The position numbers and the translations under genes are program-made. DNA of 43,041 bases from an uncultured Methylococcaceae bacterium. Lineage in GTDB: Bacteria; Pseudomonadota; Gammaproteobacteria; Methylococcales; Methylococcaceae. Below are positions 16,489 to 41,113 of this stretch, piece by piece. The notes below the pieces were generated by a model. The model worked only from the letters and a program-made list of their open reading frames with translations, had not been told where the DNA came from and ran no database searches. Position 1 is the first letter of the stretch, and each line of letters begins with the position of its first letter. The stretch spans positions 1-43,041 of the forward strand of contig CAIODU010000339.1 of NCBI GenBank assembly GCA_903857165.1, in the 5' to 3' direction.

Positions 16489-17634
16489 ATGAAAAAATAC
16501 ATCGGCCTGTGCATGATTGTCAAAAACGAGGCGCATGTCATCCGCCGTTGCTTGGAGAGCGCGTTGCCCCTCATTGATTTTGTTTGCATCGTGGATACTG
16601 GTTCCTCCGATGGCACGCAAGAGGCCGTTCGCTCGTTTCTGCGCGAAAAGAACCTGCCCGGCGTGGTTGTCGACGAGCCTTGGCAGGATTTTGCTTACAA
16701 TCGGTCTTTCGCATTGCGGCAATTGCGGGAAATGCAAACCATCGATTATGGTCTGATGATCGACGCGGATAATGTCCTTGTTTTTGAGACGGATTTCAAC
16801 GCCGCCCAGTTCAAAAAAAGTTTGGACGCCGATGTGTATGATGTCACCCTGAGGACAGGCGTTGTGTTTTACCGCTTGCCTCTATTGTTTAGCAATCGGT
16901 TGGAATTTGCTTATAAGGGCGTATTGCATGAATACCTTGATTGTTCCTTGGCAAAGACGCGCAGTATAGCCACCGGTTTCCTTAACAATCAAATCCAAGA
17001 CAGCGCAAGAAACCGCAATCCAAGAAAATATCAAGATGATGCCGCCGTTTTCGAAAAAGCACTGGCGGAAGAATCCGATCCTTCCTTGCTGTCCCGCTAT
17101 ACTTTTTATTTGGCCCAAAGCTATAGGGACTGCGGTGAAAAAATCAAATCAATGGAGGCTTATCAGCACCGCTCAACATTGGGTTATTGGGATCAAGAAG
17201 TATTTTACAGCCTATATCAAATAGCTAGGCTCAAGGAGGAGTTGGGCCATCAAGAAGAGGAAGTCATCCAGGCTTATCTTGCGGCGTATGAGGCTTGCCC
17301 GATCCGTGCGGAGTCTTTGTATGGGGCCATCCGATTTTGCCGTTTGCGACAGAAATATCAACAGGGCTATATCCTTGGCAAGCATGCGCTTGGCATAGCC
17401 TATCGGCAGGATGGATTATTTGTCGAGCAATGGATTTATGACTACGGCTTGCTGGATGAATTTTCCATTGTAGCCTATTGGGCTGGTCACTATCGCGAAT
17501 CCTTCGATGCCTGCCTGAAATTGCTAAGGGAGGCCAAAGCACCCCCTAGCCATCGGGAACGGATATTTCAGAACGCCGATTTCGCGATTCAAAAACTTAA
17601 CAATCCAGACTTGCGCAATCTATTGCCGGTGTGA
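16489..17634 (+). CDS. Family 2-like glycosyltransferase with TPR-like C-terminus
   Basis: IGLCMIVKNEAHVIRRCLES...DFVCIVDTGSSDGTQ and DYGLMIDADNVL (GT-A/GT2 motifs). Confidence 0.85.
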   Translation: MKKYIGLCMIVKNEAHVIRRCLESALPLIDFVCIVDTGSSDGTQEAVRSFLREKNLPGVVVDEPWQDFAYNRSFALRQLREMQTIDYGLMIDADNVLVFETDFNAAQFKKSLDADVYDVTLRTGVVFYRLPLLFSNRLEFAYKGVLHEYLDCSLAKTRSIATGFLNNQIQDSARNRNPRKYQDDAAVFEKALAEESDPSLLSRYTFYLAQSYRDCGEKIKSMEAYQHRSTLGYWDQEVFYSLYQIARLKEELGHQEEEVIQAYLAAYEACPIRAESLYGAIRFCRLRQKYQQGYILGKHALGIAYRQDGLFVEQWIYDYGLLDEFSIVAYWAGHYRESFDACLKLLREAKAPPSHRERIFQNADFAIQKLNNPDLRNLLPV

Positions 17635-17699: not shown

Positions 17700-19595
17700 T
17701 TAAACTATCAGTTGCTGTAGCAGGCCATTCAGCTTGTGGACAAACGCAGCCGGATCGTCAATTTGTCCGCCTTCGCTCAGCACGGCCTGATCAAACAGTA
17801 TCAGGGTCAAGTCGGCAAAACGAGTTTCATCGGTCTCGTTTTTGAGCTTGGCGATCAAGGCGTGGCTGGGGTTGATCTCAAACACTGGCTTGCTGCCCTG
17901 GACGTTTTGCCCGACTTCTTTGAGTATCTTCTCCATCGTGCGACTCATGCCATAAGCCTCGCTAACCAGACAGGCCGGGGACTCGGTCAGACGATGGCTG
18001 ATGCGCACATCGGCAACCTTGCCGTCCAAGGCTTTCTTGATCTTTTCAATCAATGCCTCGAAGTCATGGCTGACGTTGTTGATGTCTTCTTTTTCCTTCT
18101 CGTCTTCCAGCTTGCCCAAGTCCAAATCGCCACGGGCGACGGATTGCAGATGCTTGCCTTCGTAGTCGCTGAGGTGGTCTGTCAGCCAAGAGTCGATGCG
18201 GTCCCCCAACAACAATACCTCCACGCCTTTCTTGCGGAATATTTCCAAGTGCGGGCTATTCTTGGCCGCTGACAAACTATCTCCGGTGATGAAGTAAATC
18301 TTGTCCTGGCCCTCCTGCATGCGGGATATGTAGTCGTCCAAGGAAACTTCCTGGGCATCGTTCCCGGTGGAAGAGAAGCGCAACAGTTTGGCGATGCGAT
18401 CCTTGTTCTTGTAGTCGTCAATGATCCCTTCCTTGAGCGCTTGGCCGAATTCTTTCCAAAAGACTTTGAATTTATCCGGTTCGTTTTTCGCCAAATCCTC
18501 AATCAACCCCAGCAATTTCTTCACCGCGCCGGAGCGGATTTTTTCCAGCAACTGGTTTTCCTGGAGCAATTCCCGGGAAATGTTCAGCGGCAGGGAGTCG
18601 GAGTCGATCACGCCACGGATGAAGCGCAGATAGCGCGGCATTAGCTTGTCGGCATCGTCGGTGATGAACACCTTGCGCACATACAGCTTCACCCCATGTT
18701 TGGGGTCGCGATCCCACAGGTCGAAGGGTGCGTGCGACGGGATGTAAAGCAGTAAGTTGTATTCATTGGTGCCCTCAACCCGGCTGTGGAGGCGGGCCAA
18801 GGGTTCCTTGAGGTCATGCGATACGTGCCTGTAAAACTCGGCATATTGTTCTTCGGTAATTTCGTCCTTGGACTTAGTCCACAATGCCGATGCACTGTTG
18901 ACGGTTTCATATTCCACCGGCTTCCCGTCCTCGTCATCGCCGTAGGTTTCCTTTTGCATCTCGATGGGGATGGAGATGTGGTCGGAGAACTTGCGGATGA
19001 TGGTGCGCAGCCTCCAGCCTTCCAGGAATTCGTCCTCGCCCTCACGCAGGTGCAGGGTGATTTTGGTGCCTCGGTCGGCCTTCTTGATGGTTTCCAGGGT
19101 AAATTCGCCTTCCCCATTCGATTCCCAGCGAACACCTTCCTCGGGGTCGCCGCCGGCATCGCGTGTTTCCAGCGTAACCTTGTCGGCAACGATGAAAGAA
19201 GAGTAAAACCCAACGCCAAATTGACCGATCAGTTGGCTATCCTTAGCCTCGTCGCCCGTCAGCGATGCAAAGAAATGGCGGGTGCCCGAACGGGCGATGG
19301 TGCCGATATTCTCGCGCACCTCGTCACGGTTCATGCCGATGCCGTTGTCCGCAATCGTGATGGTGCGCTGTTCCTTGTCGTAATCGACGATTATTTTCAA
19401 CTGGCTGTCGCCTTCGTAGAGGCTTTCGTTGCTCAACGCACTGAAGCGCAGCTTATCGGCGGCGTCAGAGGCATTGGAGATCAGTTCGCGAAGAAAAATA
19501 TCCTTGTTGCTATACAAGGAATGAATCATCAGGTTAAGAAGTTGTTTGACTTCCGCTTCGAAGCCAAGGGTGACTTTGTTTTCCGCAACAGACAT
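17700..19595 (-). CDS. htpG: Chaperone HtpG (Hsp90)
   Basis: [39 protein letters not shown] motifs. Confidence 0.98.
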
Positions 19596-24050: not shown

Positions 24051-26714
24051 ATGTCGAACGCAAAACTGACTCTCGCACGGCTGGAAAGCCTATTGCTGAC
24101 CGCCTGTGACGATCTGCGCGGAAACATGGACGCGAGCGAATACAAGGAATACATCTTTGGCATGTTGTTCCTCAAACGCGCCAGCGACCTGTTCGACCAG
24201 CGCCGGGAGGAGATCAAACGGCAAGGTTTGGCCCAGGGTTTGAGCGAAGCGGACATTGCCCTCAACTTGGAAGACCCCGACCAATACTCCGGCAAATATT
24301 TTTTTGTGCCGCCCCGCGCCCGATGGAATGAGCCTTGGTCTGACATCACCATCGACAAGGAAGGAAAGCCTGTATTCACCCATTACCCGGCCCTCAAACA
24401 CGTCAAGGAAAATGTCGGCACGATGCTCAACAAGGCGCTTGAAGCCTTGGAAGAAGACAATGCCGATGCTTTGCAAGATGTACTCGGCAACATCAACTTC
24501 AACCGCAAAATCGGGCAGCAAACGCTGGATGACGATACGCTGACCAACTTCATCCAGAACTTCGAGAAGATTCCCCTCAAAGATGACGACTTTGAATTTC
24601 CCGACCTGCTCGGTGCGGCGTATGAATATTTGCTGAAAGAATTTGCCGACCAAGCGGGTAAAAAGGCCGGCGAGTTCTACACCCCTGCCGAGGTTGTACG
24701 CGTCTGCGTTGAAATCTGCGAACCCAAGGAAGGCATGAGCGTTTATGACCCCACCGTGGGTTCGGGCGGCATGTTAATCCAAGCGCGGGATTATGTGCGT
24801 GAATGTGGCGGCGATTCGCAAGAGTTGGCCTTGTATGGTCAGGAAAAGATGGGCACGACCTGGTCCATCTGCAAAATGAACATGCTGCTGCACGGCATTT
24901 CCCACGCCGTCATCCGCCAGCAAGACACCCTCCGCGAACCGCAACACCAAGACGACGACGGCCAGCTTAAGCGCTTCGACCGAGTACTTGCCAATCCCCC
25001 GTTCAGCCAGAATTACATCAAGAAGGAAATCAAGTTTCCCGGACGGTTCCCGGTATGGATGCCGGAAAAAGGCAAAAAGGCCGATTTGATGTTCGTCCAG
25101 CACATGCTGGCCGTGACCAAAGCCAATGGGCGATTGGCGACGGTGATGCCGCATGGAGTGCTGTTCCGGGGCGGCGAAGAACGCGAGGCAAGGCAATATT
25201 TCATCGACAAAGGCTATTTGGAGGCGGTGATTGGCCTGCCGAGCAATCTGTTTTATGGCACGGGCATTCCTGCTTGCATACTGGTATTGAACAAAGCAGG
25301 GAGCCAGCAGCGCAACTCGGTGCTGTTCATCAACGCCGACCGCGAATACCGTGAAGGCAAGGCACAAAACCATCTGCGGCCCGAAGACATCGACAAGATT
25401 GTCCACGCCTACCGTGCCGGGCATGACATCCCCGCCTATGCCCGCCGTGTGCCGGTGGATGAGATCAAGGCCGAAGACTACAACTGCAACATCCGCCGTT
25501 ATGTGGACAACGCCCCGCCGCCCGAACCGCATGATGTACGCGCCCATCTGCATGGCGGTGTGCCGGTCAGTGAAATCGACACTTTGGTGCATTTTTGGCA
25601 AAACTACGACGGGTTGAGGGAGAGTTGTTTTGTCGAGAGGCAACCACCAGAAGAGTGTTCGCGTAGCCCGGATGAAGCCCCGCAGGGGCGCAATCCGGGG
25701 AATCAATCCACGCAAGACCCCGGATTTCGCCGCAATGCGGCTACATCCGGGCTACAGGTCATCTACGCCGATTTCACCGAAGCATTGCAAGACAAACGCG
25801 CCATTGCCGCGCATGTCAACCAACACCCCGGCGTACAGCAACGGCAAACCGAGTTTATGGAGCAACTGCAAACCTGGTGGCAATTGCACTTGCCGCTGAT
25901 CGAAGGCTTGGCCCCGGATGCCGCCAACCAACAAGCCAAACCGAACAATGTCTACGCCATGCGGGCCACACTGCTGGACAGCATCGAGCGCACCTTTGCC
26001 GGTCAACACTTGCTCAACCGCTACCAGATACGCGGTGCTTTCGCCAATTATTACAATCTGCTGAAAGCCGATTTCAAATCCATCGCTGCCAGCGGGTGGG
26101 GACCGGAACTGATCCCGGACGAAGACATCCTGCAAAGCCAATTCCCTGCCGTGCTGGCCGAACTGGAAAGCCAGCACAGCCGCCTCGCCGAGTTGCAAGC
26201 CCTGTTCGCCGTTGCCAGCGAGGAAGATTTTGAAGACAGCGAAGACACCGGCGTGTTGCCCGCTGATGAAGTCAAAGCGCTGAAAGCCGTGATGAAGGAA
26301 GCCAAGGGCAACCAGAAACTCGCCAAGCGCGACAGCAGTTTTGGCGATGCCGACAGCCACCGCAAAGAGGCCGAACGCATCGAAACCCAATTGGCCCGCC
26401 ACAAAAAACTGGAAGACGAAGCCAAGACGCTGAAAACCCTAATCAAATCCACCGAAAAAAACCGCGACGAATTGGTGGAACAGGCACGGCTGAACATCAG
26501 CCGGGACGAAGCGCGGCAAGTCATCATCGAGCGGCTAGGCACTGTGTTGTTTGACAGTTACCGGCAATACCTCCGCGCCGACCAACGCGCTTGCATCGCC
26601 GCGATTGAAAACCTCTGGGGCAAATATGCTGTGACCGCCAAGCAGATTGAAGCCGAACGCGAGCTAGCGGCGGCGGAGTTGGAGGCGTTTTTGGTGGAGT
26701 TGGGGTATGAATAA
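24051..26714 (+). CDS. hsdM: Type I restriction-modification system methyltransferase subunit
   Basis: [36 protein letters not shown] and [11 protein letters not shown] (N6-adenine MTase NPPF motif). Confidence 0.96.
25663..25755. repeat. In-frame palindromic repeat inside hsdM (GTAGCCCGGATG...CATCCGGGCTAC)
   Basis: 93 bp with ~38-bp imperfect inverted arms; encodes roughly [31 protein letters not shown] without breaking the ORF. Confidence 0.85.
26676..26714 (+). repeat. 39-bp direct repeat, copy 1 (hsdM 3' end)
   Basis: gagttggaggcgtttttggtggagttggggtatgaataa; 37/39 identical to 27458-27496. Confidence 0.95.
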
Positions 26715-26717
26715 TAG

Positions 26718-26768
26718 CCGTCATTCCGCCATGGACGGTAACCAGTCGGCTGCAACAATACTTGATTG
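26718..26768. repeat. Truncated left part of the CCGTCATT element
   Basis: CCGTCATTCCGCCATGGACGGTAAC followed by sequence resembling the interior of 27127-27269; lacks the right end and one hairpin arm. Confidence 0.7.
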
Positions 26769-26792
26769 AGCCTATGTAGCCGAAGGCAATAT

Positions 26793-27083
26793 ATGAAACA
26801 ACCCGCCGTCTATATTCTGGCGAGCAAACGCAATGGTACGCTTTATACGGGTGTCACTGGCGATTTGGTTCGGCGTATATGGGAACACAAAAATGATTTT
26901 ATTGATGGGTTTACTCAAGACCACCAAACCCACAGCTTAGTGTATTATGAATTGCACGGCGATATGACAGCAGCCATTGCCCGAGAGAAACAGATTAAAA
27001 AATGGAATCGGCAGTGGAAGTTGAGGCTAATCGAAAAATCCAATCCCGAATGGCGAGATTTATGGCAAGAAATCATTGGTTAA
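26793..27083 (+). CDS. GIY-YIG nuclease family protein
   Basis: AVYILASKRNGTLYTGVTGDLVRRIWEHK...FTQDHQTHSLVYYELHGDMTAAIAREKQIKKWNRQWKLRLIEKSNPEWRDL is typical of the small GIY-YIG family. Confidence 0.92.
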   Translation: MKQPAVYILASKRNGTLYTGVTGDLVRRIWEHKNDFIDGFTQDHQTHSLVYYELHGDMTAAIAREKQIKKWNRQWKLRLIEKSNPEWRDLWQEIIG

Positions 27084-27126
27084 ACATAACCGTTATTCCG
27101 GCAGTCAGATCCAAAACAACAAATCT

Positions 27127-27269
27127 CCGTCATTCCGCCATGGACTGGCGGAATCTAGTGCCATGGACGGTAACGGGTCGATTACAACAGTGCTTGGTCG
27201 GGTTCTTTTGTAATGTTGCAGATTCACTTCCCTGTGACTGGGTTCCGGCAGTCCATGCCGGAACGACGG
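27127..27269. repeat. CCGTCATT element, copy A (143 bp)
   Basis: Terminal inverted repeats CCGTCATTCCGCCATGGACTGGCGGAATC / GGTTCCGGCAGTCCATGCCGGAACGACGG. Confidence 0.9.
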
Positions 27270-27307
27270 GGTTGAATAGGCGGCGTTCACCGGGTTGGCT
27301 AAACACT

Positions 27308-27449
27308 CCGTCATTCCCGCTGGGATGCGGGAATCCAGAGCCATGGACGGTAACGGGCCGAATACGACAGTGCTTGGTCGGGTTCTTTTGTAATGTTGCA
27401 GATTCACCTCCCTGTGACTGGGTTCCGGCAGTCCATGCCGGAACGACGG
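27308..27449. repeat. CCGTCATT element, copy B (142 bp)
   Basis: Near-identical to copy A except for a different left hairpin stem (ATTCCCGCTGGGATGCGGGAAT). Confidence 0.9.
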
Positions 27450-27457
27450 CGCTTGCT

Positions 27458-27496
27458 GAGTTGGAGGCGTTTTTGGAGGAGTTGGGGTATGAATGA
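27458..27496 (+). repeat. 39-bp direct repeat, copy 2 (duplicated hsdM tail over the hsdS start)
   Basis: gagttggaggcgtttttggaggagttggggtatgaatga; two mismatches to 26676-26714. Confidence 0.95.
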
Positions 27497-28829
27497 ATGG
27501 ATTGAAAATTCGCTAGGTTCGCTGGCATGTATTCGACGAGGTATTGGCTATTCCGAATCTACCTTGAAAAATAACCCGGAAGATGGTCGTCATTATATCA
27601 ATATGAAATCCTTTATAAAGGATGGTGGCTACAACAAAGAAGGTTTGAAGTTTTATTCAGGTTACTTTGCTAAGGCTGATGTCGTTTCATGTCGTGATTT
27701 GTTATTAGTCAATACTGATGTCACTCTTGATGGGGATATAATTGGAGTTCCAGCATATTTACCTAGCCATCTGCAAAATGAAGAGGTTTTATTTTCACAT
27801 CATGTGACGCGATTAAGTCTTAACGAAAAAATAGAGCCTAAATTTCTTTATTATCTACTTTGCATCAATACTTACCGGCGCTGGATGCTCAAATATGCCA
27901 GAGGCACGACTGTGCTTATGTTGGATATGGGGGCAATTAAAAGGATACCAATTCGATACCCTGTTACAAAAAGCAACCAGCGCAAAATAGCTGTTATCCT
28001 CACCAGCATCGACACGGCTATCGAAAAAACCGAAGCGCTGATTGAGAAATATCAGCAAATCAAAGCCGGGTTGATGCACGACCTATTCACCCGTGGTGTG
28101 CTACCCAACGGCCAGTTGCGCCCACCCCGTGAGCAAGCCCCGGAGTTGTATCAGCAAACCGCGATTGGGTGGATTCCGAAGGAGTGGGAGTGTAGTCGTC
28201 TGGGTAAAATTCTCTCTGAATCAGGCGGCTATTTGCAAACCGGTCCTTTTGGTAGCCAGTTACACGCAAATGAATATTCTTTTGAAGGAGTTCCTGTTGT
28301 GATGCCGCAGGATATAAATAATGGCTCTATTGAAGAAAACTCGATTGCACGCATTCCTGAAGAGAGGGCAATGAGCCTTTCTAGGCATCGTTTACAGCAT
28401 GGAGATGTAATTATCGCTAGGCGAGGGGAACTTTGTAGAGCAGCAGCAGTATCAAGAAGGGAGACAGATTGGATATGTGGAACTGGTTGCTTCTTGCTAC
28501 GGCTAGGAAAAACCAAAATGAACCATTGCTTCTTTTCATTGGCTTATCGGTATGATTTTATTCAAAGGCAAATAGAAGGTTTAGCTGTAGGAACTACAAT
28601 GCCAAGCCTAAATAACGCAGTAATGTCGAAGTTATATTTCCCAGTCCTTCAACCTTTAGAGCAAGATGTAATTATTTCAAAAATTGATACTCAATCAAGG
28701 ACTATGGATAAACTTGAAAAACAGGTTGAAAAGTTGCGAGAAATCAAACTCGGCCTCATGCAAGACCTCCTCACTGGCAAAGTCCCGGTGAAGGTCGATG
28801 ACCCGGTTGCGGATTTTGTGAATGCTTAA
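27489..28829 (+). CDS. hsdS: Type I restriction-modification specificity subunit
   Basis: Two TRD halves separated by KIAVILTSIDTAIEKTEALIEKYQQIKAGLMHDLFTRGV, with C-terminal LEKLREIKLGLMQDLLTGKVPV. Confidence 0.95.
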   Translation: MNEWIENSLGSLACIRRGIGYSESTLKNNPEDGRHYINMKSFIKDGGYNKEGLKFYSGYFAKADVVSCRDLLLVNTDVTLDGDIIGVPAYLPSHLQNEEVLFSHHVTRLSLNEKIEPKFLYYLLCINTYRRWMLKYARGTTVLMLDMGAIKRIPIRYPVTKSNQRKIAVILTSIDTAIEKTEALIEKYQQIKAGLMHDLFTRGVLPNGQLRPPREQAPELYQQTAIGWIPKEWECSRLGKILSESGGYLQTGPFGSQLHANEYSFEGVPVVMPQDINNGSIEENSIARIPEERAMSLSRHRLQHGDVIIARRGELCRAAAVSRRETDWICGTGCFLLRLGKTKMNHCFFSLAYRYDFIQRQIEGLAVGTTMPSLNNAVMSKLYFPVLQPLEQDVIISKIDTQSRTMDKLEKQVEKLREIKLGLMQDLLTGKVPVKVDDPVADFVNA

Positions 28830-28854: not shown

Positions 28855-28996
28855 CCGTCATTCCGCCATGGACTGGCGGAATCCAGTGCCAAGGAGGGTA
28901 ATCTGCCAGTGTGCATGTGTTTTGTTTGGGCAAGGTGCCAACCCACATATTCACATCCCTGTGACTGGGTTCCGGCAGTCCATGCCGGAACGACGG
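28855..28996. repeat. CCGTCATT element, copy C (142 bp)
   Basis: Same terminal inverted repeats as A/B but a different interior. Confidence 0.9.
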
Positions 28997-29016
28997 GTTA
29001 TATTGAAACAAATCCG

Positions 29017-29158
29017 CCGTCATTCCGCCATGGACTGGCGGAATCCAGAGCCAAGGAGGGTAATCTGCCAGTGTGCATGTGTTTTGTTTGGGCAACGTGC
29101 CAACCCACAGATTCACATCCCTGTGACTGGGTTCCGGCAGTCCATGCCGGAACGACGG
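29017..29158. repeat. CCGTCATT element, copy D (142 bp)
   Basis: Near-identical to copy C, tandem with a 20-bp gap. Confidence 0.9.
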
Positions 29159-29181
29159 TATTTTTTTAAGGAGTCCGGACT

Positions 29182-29394
29182 ATGACACTCTCACTGGAAG
29201 ATTCAGCCAAAGGCCAAGCCGCACTAAACGCATTGCAACGGGCGGTGGCAAAGACTTTGGATAATAAACAACGGTTGGGACAGTATGCCGTGGTGTGGCA
29301 AGACGGCAAGCCGGTGATCATCGGGGGGGTGTTGGATGATTTAAGCCCTTCGTCATTGGTTGGTAAGGATTTGGCGAAGCCATTAGATGACTAA
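29182..29394 (+). CDS. Small protein encoded immediately upstream of and overlapping darT
   Basis: 70 aa (...LDNKQRLGQYAVVWQDGKPVIIGG...), good SD (TTAAGGAG), 8-bp overlap with the darT start. Confidence 0.75.
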   Translation: MTLSLEDSAKGQAALNALQRAVAKTLDNKQRLGQYAVVWQDGKPVIIGGVLDDLSPSSLVGKDLAKPLDD

Positions 29395-30034
29395 CCATTA
29401 TCCCAGCCTGAACCCTGACAAAGCGCTGATCTGGCGCATTGTCCATCGGGACAATCTCCCGTGGATTCTGGACAATGGCTTGCACTGTGCCAATTCCAGC
29501 GTGTTGTCCTCCAATTACATTAAAATCGGCAATGCCGAGTTGATCGACAAGCGCCACCATCGCCCTGTACCGATTTCACCGGGCGGCACATTGGCCGACT
29601 ATGTGCCGTTTTACTTCACCCCCTTCTCGGTGATGATGAAAAACATCCATTCCGGTTGGGGGGTGCAACAACGCCACAATGAAGAAATTGTCATCGTGGT
29701 GTCCAGCTTGCATCATGTCAAATCCATTGGCTTGCCTTTCGTTTTTACCAATGCACATGCTTACCCAAACTGGACTAATTTTTACAGCGATTTGGCACAA
29801 TTAAAGGAAATTGACTGGGAGATTTTACAACGCCGGGATTTCAGCCGTGACCCGGACGACCCGAGAAAGATGGAACGATACCAGGCAGAAGCCTTGATCT
29901 ATAAGCACTTGCCAATTCATGGCTTTCTCGGCATAGTGTGCTACACCGAAGCACTCAAACCTAACATTGAACTGGAGATTCAGCAGCGTGGGCTGCAACT
30001 GCCAGTATATGCCCGTCCGGGCTGGTATTTCTGA
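29387..30034 (+). CDS. darT: DarT-like ssDNA thymidine ADP-ribosyltransferase toxin (DUF4433)
   Basis: [20 protein letters not shown]...; [37 protein letters not shown]. Confidence 0.92.
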
Positions 30035-31107
30035 TGATTCAATTCACCCAAGGTAATTTATTAGAGGCGCGAACCGAGGCACTGGTCAATACAGTGAACA
30101 CGGTTGGCGTGATGGGCAAGGGCATCGCGTTAATGTTCAAGGATCGCTTTGCCGAAAATTTCCGTTTATATGCCGCCGCTTGTAAGGCTAAGCAGGTGCA
30201 AACCGGCAAGATGTTCGTGACCGAGGTGAATGAACTGGAAGGCCCGCGCTGGATTGTGAATTTTCCAACCAAGCAACATTGGCGAGCGCCTTCACGATTG
30301 GCGTGGGTGGTGGAAGGACTGCATGACTTGCGCCGATTTCTCGTTGACCATCAAGTCAAATCCATTGCCATTCCGCCCTTAGGCGCGGGCAATGGGGGCC
30401 TGGAATGGGCCGATGTGCGTCAACAGGTTGAGGCTATCTTAGGGGATTTGGATTTAGAAATCATCGTGTTCGAGCCTACCCGGCAATACCAAAATATAGC
30501 CAAGCGCACCGGAGTCGAAAAGCTAACGCCCGCCCGTGCATTGATAGCGGAAATGGTGCGGCGTTACTGGATACTGGGGATGGAGTGCAGTTTGTTGGAA
30601 ATACAAAAGCTCGCGTGGTTTATTGAGCGGGGAATTGAGCGCTTCAGACCGGGGGACAACCCGCTCAATTTGCAGTTTGTGGCGCATAAATATGGCCCTT
30701 ACGCCAACCGGCTAGACCACTTGTTGAACAACTTGGATGGTAGTTATCTGCATTGCAACAAGCGTATCAGCGATGCCGACCCGCTTGAAGTCATCTGGTT
30801 TGACAATGACAGGAAGACCTACATGGAAACCTATCTGAAGACTGAGGCTAAAGCCTATCTGCCTGCATTGGAATACACCACGGCCTTGATTGATGGGTTT
30901 GAGTCGCCGTTTGGCATGGAGCTTTTGGCAACGGTGGATTGGCTGTTGTGCAAGGAACAAATTGACCCAACCCTTGAGGCGGTGCGGGAGGGCATGAAAC
31001 ACTGGCCAGCGGGGGCGGCGGAGCGGAAATGCCGTTTGTTTGATGATCGTGCCATTAGTATTGCATTAGCGCGTTTGCAGAACCCGCCGACTATCCCGGC
31101 AAGGTGA
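30034..31107 (+). CDS. darG: DarG-like macrodomain antitoxin
   Basis: [35 protein letters not shown] and [18 protein letters not shown] overlap with darT. Confidence 0.93.
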
Positions 31108-31115
31108 AATGCGTC

Positions 31116-34100
31116 ATGTCTGAATACTCCGAAGTCGAAAAACCCTTCCTGCAGCAGCTTGAAAAATTAGGCTGGACAGTCATCGACCAAGGCATAGGGA
31201 TTCCGCAAGAGGCCGCGCCTAGCCTACGCAGTCACTTCCGCCAGTGGGTATTGCCGGAGGTGTTCAACGAAGCCGTGCGGGCCATCAATTTAACCGAAGA
31301 TGGCAAAGAATGGCTGACCGATCTGCAATTGGACGATTTACGCAGTCAGTTGTCACGCCAACCCAACCGCACTCTGCTGGAAGCCAATGAAGCCGTTCAA
31401 GCCTTGTTGCTTAAGGCCCAGGTGGATGTCAACGAACTGACTGGCGAGGTTGACCCGGTGGTGCGGTTAATTGATTTCCAAAACCCGGAAAACAACCGTT
31501 TCCACGCCATCAACCAGTTCCGCATCGACACGCCGGGTTGTGTGAAGGGCTTCATCATTGTGGACATCGTGTTGTTCGTCAATGGCATTCCCTTGTGCGT
31601 GGTGGAGTGTAAAAAAGGCTCGGAAGTCTGTGCCAACCCGATGCAGGAAGCCTTTGTACAGCTGCAGCGTTACTTGCGCCGTCGCAAAGAAACCGAACTG
31701 GCCGGACTGAAGGAAGGCGAGCCACGGCTGTTTTACACCAATCTATTGTTGATCCGCACCAGTGGGTTGGAAGCCGACTATGGCACGATCACGTCGGGCG
31801 AAGAGCATTTCTTCGCATGGAAAACGCTCTACCCGGAGAACGAGGCCGACCGCGAGGGCATGAACGCCCAACAGCAATTGATCGCGGGGATGCTGACCCG
31901 GCGCAACCTGTTACAGATTCTCCGTACTTGTTCGGTGTTCATGGACACCGATGGCGGCACACGCATCAAGGCGGTTTGTCGTTATCAGCAATTCCGCGCC
32001 GCCAATAAGATTGTGGATCGCTTGCGCACCGGCATGACCGCGATGGACCGCAGCGGCGTGGTCTGGCACACCCAAGGTTCGGGCAAATCCCTGACCATGG
32101 TGTTCTTGGCGCGGATGCTGAGGGCCAGCCGTGACTTGAATGATTATAAGATAGTGCTGGTGAATGACCGGCATGATTTGGAAGACCAATTGGGCGAGAC
32201 GGCCACGCTGATTGGCGGGCGGGTGAATGTCATCGAAAGCAGCCAAGACTTGCGCCTGTCCTTGGCAACCGACAGTTCCGACATCAACATGGTGATGGTG
32301 CATAAGTTCCAAGAGCGCAAGCAAGTGTTGGGCAATGCGGTGGTCGAGGCACTCGGCACTTATCTAGCGATGCCAGCCAGCAAGACGTTTGGCGTGGTCA
32401 ATGCCTCGGAGCGGATTATTCTGCTGATCGACGAGGCACACCGGACGCAAAGCTCGGACATGGGTGACAACCTGTTCGATGCCTTCCCAAATGCCACCCG
32501 CGTGGCCTTCACCGGCACACCGCTGATTACCGAACGCCACGGTGAAAAAAGAACGCACAAACGTTTTGGCGAGTACATCGACACTTACAAGGTGATGGAC
32601 TCCGTGAATGACGGTGCCACGTTGCAAATTCTGTACGAAGGCAAAACCGCCGACAGCGCACTCAATGAAAAACATGCCTTTGATGAGGCGTTTGAGGACT
32701 TGTTTAAGGATCGTAGCGAAGAGGAATTACTGGCGATCAAGCGGAAATACGGGGCCACGGGCGACATCTTGGAAGCCGAGAACCGCATCAATGCCATCAC
32801 CCGCGATTTGGTCAAGCATTATGTGGACAACATCTTGCCGAATGGCTTTAAGGCGCAAGTGGTGTGTCATTCCAAACTGGCGTGTGTGCGCTATCAAGTG
32901 GGGATTCAGGCAGCGTTGGCTGAACGAATCGAACTTGAAGAAAGCCTTATTGCATCCGTTCCTGTAAAATTAAAGAGTCATTCCACCATGGATTGGCGGA
33001 ATCCAGACGCAGGGATGCAGATTGTGGGGCGGGACGGATTGTCCTCCATGGCACTGGGTTCCGGCAGTCCTTGCCGGAACGACGATGAACACCTAAATTC
33101 AATTAGATTAGATGCATCACCTGATTACGAACTCATCAAAAAGTTGAAGTTTTTGAAAACCGCCGTGGTGATCTCGTCCGATGGCACGAATGAATTGGCC
33201 TATATCACTCATGCCCGCAAACAGGCGGCACGGATGAATGCGGTGGACAATTTCTGCAAAAGCTTCGACTACGACGATCCAGACAAGGAAAATACCGGCA
33301 TCGCCTTCCTGATTGTCTGCGATATGCTGTTGACCGGGTTTGATGCGCCCATTGAACAGGTCATGTACATTGACAAAAAACTGCGAGAACATGGCTTGTT
33401 ACAGGCCATCGCCCGGACCAATCGGGTAAGGAAGGGCAAGCAGCGCGGGTATATCGTGGACTATATTGGCTTGGCCAACCACCTGACCTCGGCGTTGTCT
33501 CTCTATGCCGCCAGTGATGAACTGCAAGAACTCCAAGACGGTTTGCAGAGCATCGCATCAGAATTGCCTATCTTGGAAGAACGCTATCAGCGCTTGTTGC
33601 AGCTTTTCACTGAATACGGGGTGAAGCAGATCAAAGCGTTCGTCACCGGTGCATTGCCGAATCTGGACGCGGATGCTGCCGTGGTCCATGCTGCCGTTAA
33701 AGCATTAAAGGATGAAAAACGACGGGCTGATTTTGAAGTGTATTTGAAAAAGTTCTTGATGAGCCTGGACATCATCCTGCCTCATGAGTCGGCTCAATCC
33801 TACCGTGTTCCCGCCAAGCGTTTCGGCTACATCTTGCAAGTCGCCAAGGAACGCTATAAAGATTCCAGCCTTGACTTAGGGAATGCGGGGGAAAAGGTCA
33901 AGGCGTTGATTAACGGGCATCTCATCAGCCTTGGCATCAATCCAAAGGTTCCACCCATCGAACTATTGGCCGAGGACTTTCTGGAAAAATTGGCATCCCA
34001 CACCGGCAATAATGCGGAAGCCAAGGCCAGCGAAATGGAACACGCCATTCGCAAGCATTGCACTGTCCATCATGACGAAGACCCGGCATTCTACAAAAGC

Positions 34101-34544
34101 CTGTCCGAAAAAGTGGATGCGCTGATCGAAAAGCATCATGATGAGTGGGAATTGCTGGCAGAGCAGTTGGCCGGGTTGCGCAACGAGGCGATTACCGGTC
34201 GCCAACAAGGCAAAGACGGCATGGGTAAAGAGGCAGCCACCTTCTTCGAGCATATCGTGCCAGTGGGTTTTGCCAGTGGCTCGGTCGATGACGAGGCAAG
34301 ACCCAGGTTCAAGGCATTGATGGAATCCGTTGTTGAAATACTTCAAGACACCATTGGTAGCATCGACTTTTGGCAAAACCCGGATAAGCAAAAGCGGGTT
34401 CGTGGTTTGATTAAGACCGAAATCGCCAAGACGGGAATCGAGGAGTTGAAGCAGAACCGGGAACGGGTTGCCGTCGAAATCATGAAGCTTGCCAAAAATC
34501 GCCACGACCAACTAACACGGCATTCCCAAGCAGTGGGGGCATGA
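31116..34544 (+). CDS. hsdR: Type I restriction endonuclease subunit R
   Basis: VNGIPLCVVECKKGSE (nuclease), HTQGSGKSLTMVFLARML (Walker A), LLIDEAHRTQ, GTPL...; GTG 31104 is an alternative start. Confidence 0.95.
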   Translation: MSEYSEVEKPFLQQLEKLGWTVIDQGIGIPQEAAPSLRSHFRQWVLPEVFNEAVRAINLTEDGKEWLTDLQLDDLRSQLSRQPNRTLLEANEAVQALLLKAQVDVNELTGEVDPVVRLIDFQNPENNRFHAINQFRIDTPGCVKGFIIVDIVLFVNGIPLCVVECKKGSEVCANPMQEAFVQLQRYLRRRKETELAGLKEGEPRLFYTNLLLIRTSGLEADYGTITSGEEHFFAWKTLYPENEADREGMNAQQQLIAGMLTRRNLLQILRTCSVFMDTDGGTRIKAVCRYQQFRAANKIVDRLRTGMTAMDRSGVVWHTQGSGKSLTMVFLARMLRASRDLNDYKIVLVNDRHDLEDQLGETATLIGGRVNVIESSQDLRLSLATDSSDINMVMVHKFQERKQVLGNAVVEALGTYLAMPASKTFGVVNASERIILLIDEAHRTQSSDMGDNLFDAFPNATRVAFTGTPLITERHGEKRTHKRFGEYIDTYKVMDSVNDGATLQILYEGKTADSALNEKHAFDEAFEDLFKDRSEEELLAIKRKYGATGDILEAENRINAITRDLVKHYVDNILPNGFKAQVVCHSKLACVRYQVGIQAALAERIELEESLIASVPVKLKSHSTMDWRNPDAGMQIVGRDGLSSMALGSGSPCRNDDEHLNSIRLDASPDYELIKKLKFLKTAVVISSDGTNELAYITHARKQAARMNAVDNFCKSFDYDDPDKENTGIAFLIVCDMLLTGFDAPIEQVMYIDKKLREHGLLQAIARTNRVRKGKQRGYIVDYIGLANHLTSALSLYAASDELQELQDGLQSIASELPILEERYQRLLQLFTEYGVKQIKAFVTGALPNLDADAAVVHAAVKALKDEKRRADFEVYLKKFLMSLDIILPHESAQSYRVPAKRFGYILQVAKERYKDSSLDLGNAGEKVKALINGHLISLGINPKVPPIELLAEDFLEKLASHTGNNAEAKASEMEHAIRKHCTVHHDEDPAFYKSLSEKVDALIEKHHDEWELLAEQLAGLRNEAITGRQQGKDGMGKEAATFFEHIVPVGFASGSVDDEARPRFKALMESVVEILQDTIGSIDFWQNPDKQKRVRGLIKTEIAKTGIEELKQNRERVAVEIMKLAKNRHDQLTRHSQAVGA
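32977..33084. repeat. In-frame CCGTCATT-family repeat inside hsdR
   Basis: 108 bp, gtcattccaccatggattggcggaatccag...ggttccggcagtccttgccggaacgacg; ORF stays open. Confidence 0.9.
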
Positions 34545-38206: not shown

Positions 38207-38331
38207 CCAATACTGTTGAATTAAGGAGTAGGTCGGCATCCCCATGCCGACAATGAACTTGTTCTTCCCTCGGCGGCAAAGGGTTGCCGCCCTACGGATT
38301 CTGTTGCATAGGCTTAATTCAACAGTATTGG
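38207..38331. mobile_element. MITE-like element copy 1 (125 bp, 19-bp perfect TIRs CCAATACTGTTGAATTAAG)
   Basis: Perfect TIRs; flanked by GGTTTGGAA / GGTTTGGAC; inserted inside another palindrome (38189-38351). Confidence 0.85.
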
Positions 38332-40989: not shown

Positions 40990-41113
40990 CAATACTGTTG
41001 AATTAAGCAATAACGACAAAACCCGTAGGGCGGCAACCCTTTGCCGCCGAGGGATGAGACAAGTCCGTTGTCGGCATGGGGATGCCGCCCTACGCCTTAA
41101 TTCAACAGCATTG
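40990..41113. mobile_element. MITE-like element copy 2 (124 bp, CAATACTGTTGAATTAAG / CTTAATTCAACAGCATTG)
   Basis: Interior is the reverse complement of copy 1; flanked by AGTAGG on both sides. Confidence 0.85.

Follow-up and report, generated by a model that had tools for sequence, protein, structure and literature searches.

The restriction subunit gene hsdR of a type I system (31116-34544, 1142 aa) has an open frame that runs straight through a palindromic repeat, which raises the question of what this repeat is, how it came to lie in the gene, and how the gene accommodates it. The locus belongs to a window of 43,041 nucleotides from an uncultured Methylococcaceae bacterium, by which is meant the whole stretch of DNA that was analysed; the hsd genes, the cassette, the repeats and the MITEs placed in it below are on its plus strand unless stated otherwise.

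The segment inserted in hsdR

The first-pass annotation of this DNA had recognised a 108-bp repeat copy at 32977-33084, translated within HsdR. This is borne out by the analysis: the 108 bp form an inverted pair of CGTC-type palindromes, and their translation inside the 1142-aa reading frame is free of stops and gives the peptide quoted in that annotation. The left palindrome (GTCATTCC...GGAATC, 32977-33003) has AGTC in place of CGTC, and the right one (CGTCGTTCC...GGAACC, 33057-33084) is read on the minus strand. Searches of the 4.9-Mb genome gave more than 100 dispersed matches to one window copy of this palindrome family and more than 50 to the hsdR copy itself, indicating that the segment in hsdR is not a chance resemblance.

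The coordinates of the annotation stand for the core of the insert but not for its full extent. The true insert comprises approximately 162 nt, namely a 151-bp composite MITE, here called type A (32957-33107; 145 bp in intact copies), and an 11-bp target duplication, and the repeat is therefore part of a larger MITE and not a free-standing element. The left (32946-32956, CTTATTGCATC) and right (33108-33118, TTAGATGCATC) copies of the duplication have decayed to a match at 7 of 11 positions, while several other type-A copies have perfect duplications of 11-12 bp. Both copies in hsdR share TGCATC at a spacing of exactly 162 nt, or 54 codons, a repeat that is weak on its own, as a 6-mer match among some 900 flank pairs, and was relied on only in combination with that model of the element described next.

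This model, built from 13 copies, matched the hsdR insert in nhmmer over nodes 7-141 of 148 with 68.9 bits. The score was reached in none of 500 controls in which both flanks or the right flank were shuffled, and in 61 of 500 when the left flank was shuffled. The right terminal inverted repeat (33085-33107, ATGAACACCTAAATTCAATTAGA) is thus well supported, and the left one (32957-32976), placed by the model alignment, is not significant alone because it is too decayed. Three other descriptions of the segment were set aside. Type-B ends (CACTGCCATTAAGTTAAG) as the source of the hsdR copy scored 54.3 bits against 68.9 for type A, a target duplication of about 54 bp around the palindrome pair was by eye no better than background, and an RNA hairpin as the selected function of the insert had a fold z-score of only -1.9.

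A frame-neutral element and its other hosts

A genome search with a relative of the segment, and alignment of the copies it gave, placed many palindrome pairs at the centre of such MITEs. Intact type-A copies are 145 bp long, begin with CAATGCTGTTGAAWTAAGCCGTC, end with CCTTAATTCAACAGCATTG and are flanked by target duplications of 11-12 bp, which gives a total of 156 bp, or 3 x 52 (clean examples are L253, L260 and L296). Their terminal inverted repeats (CAATGCTGTTGAAWTAAG) had 127 hits in the genome with up to two mismatches, and the control had none. In 12 of 13 copies, one strand and phase has no stop over the whole length of the element. Copies of the CGTC palindrome family read CGTC ATTCCGGCA TGGAC TGCCGGAAT CCA, and type A has the look of a classical MITE that carries a CGTC core as a passenger. 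No autonomous transposon with type-A ends was found in the genome searches; locus L332, with 1.3 kb between such ends, was considered as one and rejected, as it encloses a 360-aa ORF that by eye is not transposase-like. All genome counts are minimum values, as they come from ranked searches of a draft assembly in which only the best candidates were scored.

The window also contains two MITEs with the same terminal repeats and a GTAG core, of 123 bp (38208-38330) and 124 bp (40990-41113), which amount to 134-135 bp with the duplication. The genome has about 60 ends of this kind per strand. The CGTC core was seen inside other ends as well, of type B (L153, L267, L272, L278) and of type C (L148, L169, L271), and no type-B or type-C copies were found in long ORFs.

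Of the 16 type-A copies found in this genome, 11 lie within ORFs in the open frame, with 80 codons or more to either side. Among the other CGTC pairs of the same loci this is the case for 2 of 57 (Fisher 8e-8 versus type A), and among the same-ended GTAG-cored copies for 0 of 9 (p 0.001 versus type A). According to Pfam, the hosts of type A are HsdR, an RT-Cas1, an N6/N4 DNA methylase, two nSTAND1 ATPases, an AAA_35-FGE protein, an FGE-domain protein, a kinase-WD40 protein and a CHAT/TPR protein, while two further hosts have no Pfam match. Alignment with solved structures placed the insert outside the homologous chains of RT-Cas1 (7kft) and of the FGE-domain protein (7spq), in which it is missing. 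Four relatives (G006, G002, G003 and G001) also yielded copies in long open frames when searched with the peptide. On one contig of genome G000 (C227), two peptide matches (16528-16668 and 18604-18732) have the same open-frame length of 1008 aa, and may represent a single ORF with two copies of the element.

These counts suggest how genes may be spared. An intact copy and its duplication would add a multiple of three nucleotides, and with one strand and phase free of stops each insertion would contribute about 52 residues; in about a sixth of the insertions that hit a gene, the product would then be lengthened and the gene left unharmed. Insertion was presumably close to random, with only the frame-neutral phase persisting in genes, and targeting of genes is probably not needed to account for the 11 in-frame copies among 16. 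This offers an arithmetic reason for the decoration of proteins, in that length plus target duplication is divisible by three and one frame is open, and the same-ended GTAG-cored MITEs serve as a natural control that lacks it.

The annotation had further claimed that a second subunit of the system carries an in-frame repeat of a different family, and that this is unusual. The first of these claims holds, given that HsdM (24051-26714, 887 aa) contains a GTAG-type palindrome pair in frame at 25663-25755, which makes it approximately 33-38 residues longer than most homologues. The second does not, given that at least 10 ORFs besides hsdR carry the type-A element in frame in this genome. With so many other proteins decorated, two decorated restriction-modification subunits are not exceptional here.

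The closest parallel among known systems is found in the palindromic elements of Rickettsia (Ogata et al. 2000, 2002, as summarised in PMC10969869), which measure up to about 150 bp and place a conserved peptide in frame in many unrelated genes. Judged by the features described, type A shares with them an in-frame palindromic element that encodes one conserved peptide in many unrelated ORFs (11 here, in the same frame) and is absent from homologues. It differs in that its host is a free-living methanotroph and not Rickettsia, that its terminal inverted repeats can be recognised and its target duplication measures 11-12 bp, for a total of 156 bp or 52 codons, and that it has a same-ended sister with another core, of which none was found in frame. 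In-frame insertion was singled out as a property of the Rickettsia elements in a 2024 review, with the remark that something similar may have happened elsewhere (PMC10969869). Type A resembles such an insertion, carried by a defined MITE of frame-neutral size. The case shows that palindromic DNA that decorates proteins, best known in Rickettsia, also spreads among defence and signalling proteins in a free-living methanotroph of the Gammaproteobacteria.

GTAG and CGTC palindromes were defined by Di Nocera, De Gregorio and Rocco (2013, PMC3733652), who described copies lying in frame within genes, often those for DNA repair, and classed RPE-4 and RPE-6 of R. conorii as CGTC repeats. The present copies fit the CGTC format, with a CGTC tag, a stem of 8-9 bp starting with AT, a loop of 4-5 bases and a short CCA-like tail. 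Type A agrees with the CGTC dimers of that survey in its tag, its 9-bp stem starting with AT, its 5-base loop, its CCA tail, the inverted pairing and the occasional in-frame copies, often in DNA-handling genes, and differs from them in that a larger MITE encloses the pair as its core. The GTAG family of the survey is represented by the in-frame pair in HsdM and by the pairs that fill the same-ended MITEs at 38208 and 40990, although the GTAG-cored MITEs, unlike type A, were not found in ORFs. ERIC and the Coxiella element QMITE1 (PMC10969869) are likewise short non-autonomous MITEs with inverted ends, a target duplication and some in-frame fusions; for type A, in contrast, in-frame fusions in a single phase make up most of the copies in the genome.

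Age and consequences of the insertion

The annotation had taken the segment as an in-frame addition to HsdR, and the comparison with homologues agrees with this. The segment is absent from 77 of 78 aligned HsdR homologues, which come from many phyla and are 61-94% identical in the best segment. Between the motifs NGFKAQVV and SSDGTNE, 76 of the 78 have 63 residues, one (L122) has 68, and one, G001, has 83. The window HsdR has 118 residues in this interval, which amounts to 55 extra residues, compared with the 36 that had been claimed, and to 20 in G001. That the segment is ancestral and was lost in the other lineages can practically be dismissed, given that it is missing from so many homologues and matches a dispersed repeat.

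Genome G001 is a sibling, the MAG of an uncultured Methylococcaceae bacterium of the same genus, with hsdR on contig CAIOOA010000047. It retains AACGACGGTGAACACCTAAATTCAA, which is identical to the right end of the type-A element at 21 of 25 positions and matches the right terminal repeat in the window, and the 8-nt element end AACGACGG lies exactly at its junction. The two hsdR genes show a net difference of 105 nt, centred on the palindrome pair. Since the right end of the element is retained in G001, the insertion in hsdR is older than the split between the two lineages, and the simplest history is a single insertion in their common ancestor, after which G001 lost 105 nt in frame. The GTAG pair in hsdM is also present in G001, where the gene aligns through it with 92% identity and a length change of at most 3 nt. 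With one insertion at full length in the sibling and a remnant of the other, both are old and inherited.

The position of the 105-nt gap, together with a left flank that has no significant match to the element end, also allows for a history in two steps, in which an unrelated in-frame linker of about 60 nt, as in G001, came first and only the 108-bp CGTC pair was added in the window lineage. This is improbable, given that the extra right-hand nucleotides of both genomes match the right terminal repeat of the MITE (21 of 25 positions in G001, and 0 of 500 shuffles in the window) and that AACGACGG falls exactly at the G001 junction.

With regard to the gene, no stops and no frameshifts are found in the translation of the 1142 codons of hsdR. 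The protein has the HSDR_N nuclease domain, the SF2 helicase motifs and the hsdMSR locus expected of such a subunit (Pfam HSDR_N, SWI2_SNF2, T1R_D3-like), and its helicase and nuclease motifs are invariant in a 40-row alignment. Chains of EcoR124I-type HsdR align on both sides of the insert. Compared with G001, the DNA is 93 and 90% identical on the two sides of the insert, and dN/dS is 0.045 before and 0.036 after it by NG86 and approximately 0.06 on either side by YN00. HsdR is thus under purifying selection with the insert in place. The locus is indeed crowded with repeats and a nuclease cassette, as might be the case for an hsdR that is decaying and has simply not yet acquired a stop; the intact frame, the invariant motifs and a dN/dS of 0.04-0.06 leave hardly any room for this, in agreement with the annotation, for which decay would have counted against the claim. 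A restriction gene was apparently hit by a mobile element without being broken, and HsdR, as judged from its sequence, is apparently functional and probably active as an enzyme. The element would be translated as an extra loop and leaves hsdR unbroken because its length and reading frame fit.

In the second (RecA-like) helicase domain, the insert follows the FKAQVV region and precedes motif V. In an AlphaFold2 model from 40 sequences, residues 614-667 form a coil with a pLDDT of about 25, bracketed by helices at 587-613 and 671-679 with a pLDDT of about 80. The model is poor globally (mean pLDDT 59, pTM 0.42), and for this reason the insert is placed in the fold by local confidence and by the order of the motifs; use of the model for structural placement was dropped, its global confidence being too low for a fold search.

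Same-site insertions are shared by species of the genus in RT-Cas1 (G000 and G006) and in the CHAT/TPR protein (G000 and G003), with the pairs L268 and L295, and L264 and L297. These inserts persist in frame across species with dN/dS below 1, at 0.41 in RT-Cas1 and 0.21 in CHAT-TPR, values that are weak over 47-49 codons and that homogenisation among copies may affect. They could speak for recruitment, in which the inserted peptide alters or regulates HsdR and is retained by selection. This is quite unlikely for HsdR, since the sibling shed most of the insert in frame while purifying selection on the gene continued, and the hosts of the element are unrelated proteins. In the CHAT pair, the insert is 91% alike in nucleotides compared with 74-79% for the flanks, hinting at conversion between copies of the element.

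It is very probable that the segment is one copy of a type-A MITE resident in the genome, which transposed into hsdR before the window and G001 lineages split, and that this frame-neutral insertion has been tolerated in a helicase loop, with a peptide that is most likely passive and can be shortened in frame. The mobile unit would consist of IS-like terminal inverted repeats (CAATGCTGTTGAAWTAAG...) around an inverted CGTC palindrome core, generating a target duplication of 11-12 bp, and would presumably be moved by a transposase acting in trans. The hsdR copy would have entered the second RecA-like helicase domain at a loop where the product presumably tolerates it, and the added peptide is most likely a disordered loop that has no function and was kept by chance, trimmable in frame as in G001. 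This near-loss in the sibling is a natural case that makes loop tolerance directly testable.

A GIY-YIG cassette at the hsdM/hsdS junction

The same type I locus contains a second kind of insertion. Between hsdM and hsdS lies a cassette of 742 bp (26713-27454), which carries a single-domain GIY-YIG nuclease gene of 96 aa (26793-27083; PF01541, E 3.2e-14) and CGTC palindromes, two further pairs of which are found at 27128-27448. It is flanked by a 40-bp direct repeat, the left copy of which (26673-26712) is the original 3' end of hsdM, while the right copy (27455-27494) is a duplicated hsdM 3' end that includes the start of hsdS. The latter gene (27489-28829) likely has its true start at 27489, the mechanical ORF start at 27393 being inside the palindrome element, and is followed by two tandem CGTC palindrome pairs (28855-29169). 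The hsdM/hsdS junction of G001 is empty, without the cassette.

Among relatives, CGTC palindromes were found within 350 bp of GIY-YIG genes of this subfamily at 39 of 41 loci (L171-L211), and beside distant GIY-YIG genes at 0 of 11. The 28.7 kb around these GIY-YIG genes contained 89 palindromes, compared with 4 in the 130 kb of HsdR loci from the same genomes, and 623 kb of shuffled sequence gave none. In a sample across the phylum, 21 of 29 GIY-YIG genes were flanked by CGTC palindromes (L223-L251). Upstream of the gene the palindrome tags mostly point outward (32 vs 9), and downstream there is little bias (26 vs 22).

The palindrome stems differ among genomes and are often alike on either side of one GIY-YIG gene. 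The stem ATCCCGGC was found in only 4 of 18 genomes, those whose GIY-YIG gene carries this stem or a close variant, with 68, 19, 5 and 2 copies, the last two counts being partly the GIY-YIG locus itself. The stem ATTTCGGC is mainly confined to the genus of the window and is also present in G001, in which no GIY-YIG gene was detected; for this reason the association of stem and gene is only partly supportive.

At four loci of relatives (L175, L177, L195 and L203), the GIY-YIG gene likewise lies between duplicated copies of what appears to be an hsdM 3' end, and approximately 10 of 70 GIY-YIG loci resemble hsdM/hsdS junctions as judged by eye. It is tentatively proposed, with somewhat less than even confidence, that this GIY-YIG family is the missing enzyme for the mobility of CGTC palindromes, comparable to RAYT for GTAG, and that the gene, together with palindromes whose tags point outward, makes up a mobile cassette, from which genome-specific CGTC families are seeded and which tends to settle at type I hsdM/hsdS junctions, duplicating the hsdM 3' end so that hsdS keeps its start. 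In the 2013 survey, CGTC repeats were apparently without a dedicated transposase (PMC3733652), in contrast to the tight association with GIY-YIG genes found here (39/41), a difference that concerns a reported absence and not a structural definition. No link of GIY-YIG with REP or RAYT terms was found in the literature searched. The family offers a concrete candidate enzyme for a mobility that the survey (PMC3733652) left open.

Cassettes of this kind were also seen at apparent hsdM/hsdS junctions of various type I systems (L174, L175, L176, L177, L189, L195, L196, L203 and L232), and at several junction loci the duplicated hsdM 3' ends terminate in GGGGTATG. In the window, a DarTG-like pair, which consists of a DarT-like toxin and a macro-domain protein, is found between hsdS and hsdR (29387-31107); the corresponding sequence ahead of hsdR in G001 (L032, 601-790) does not have room for it.
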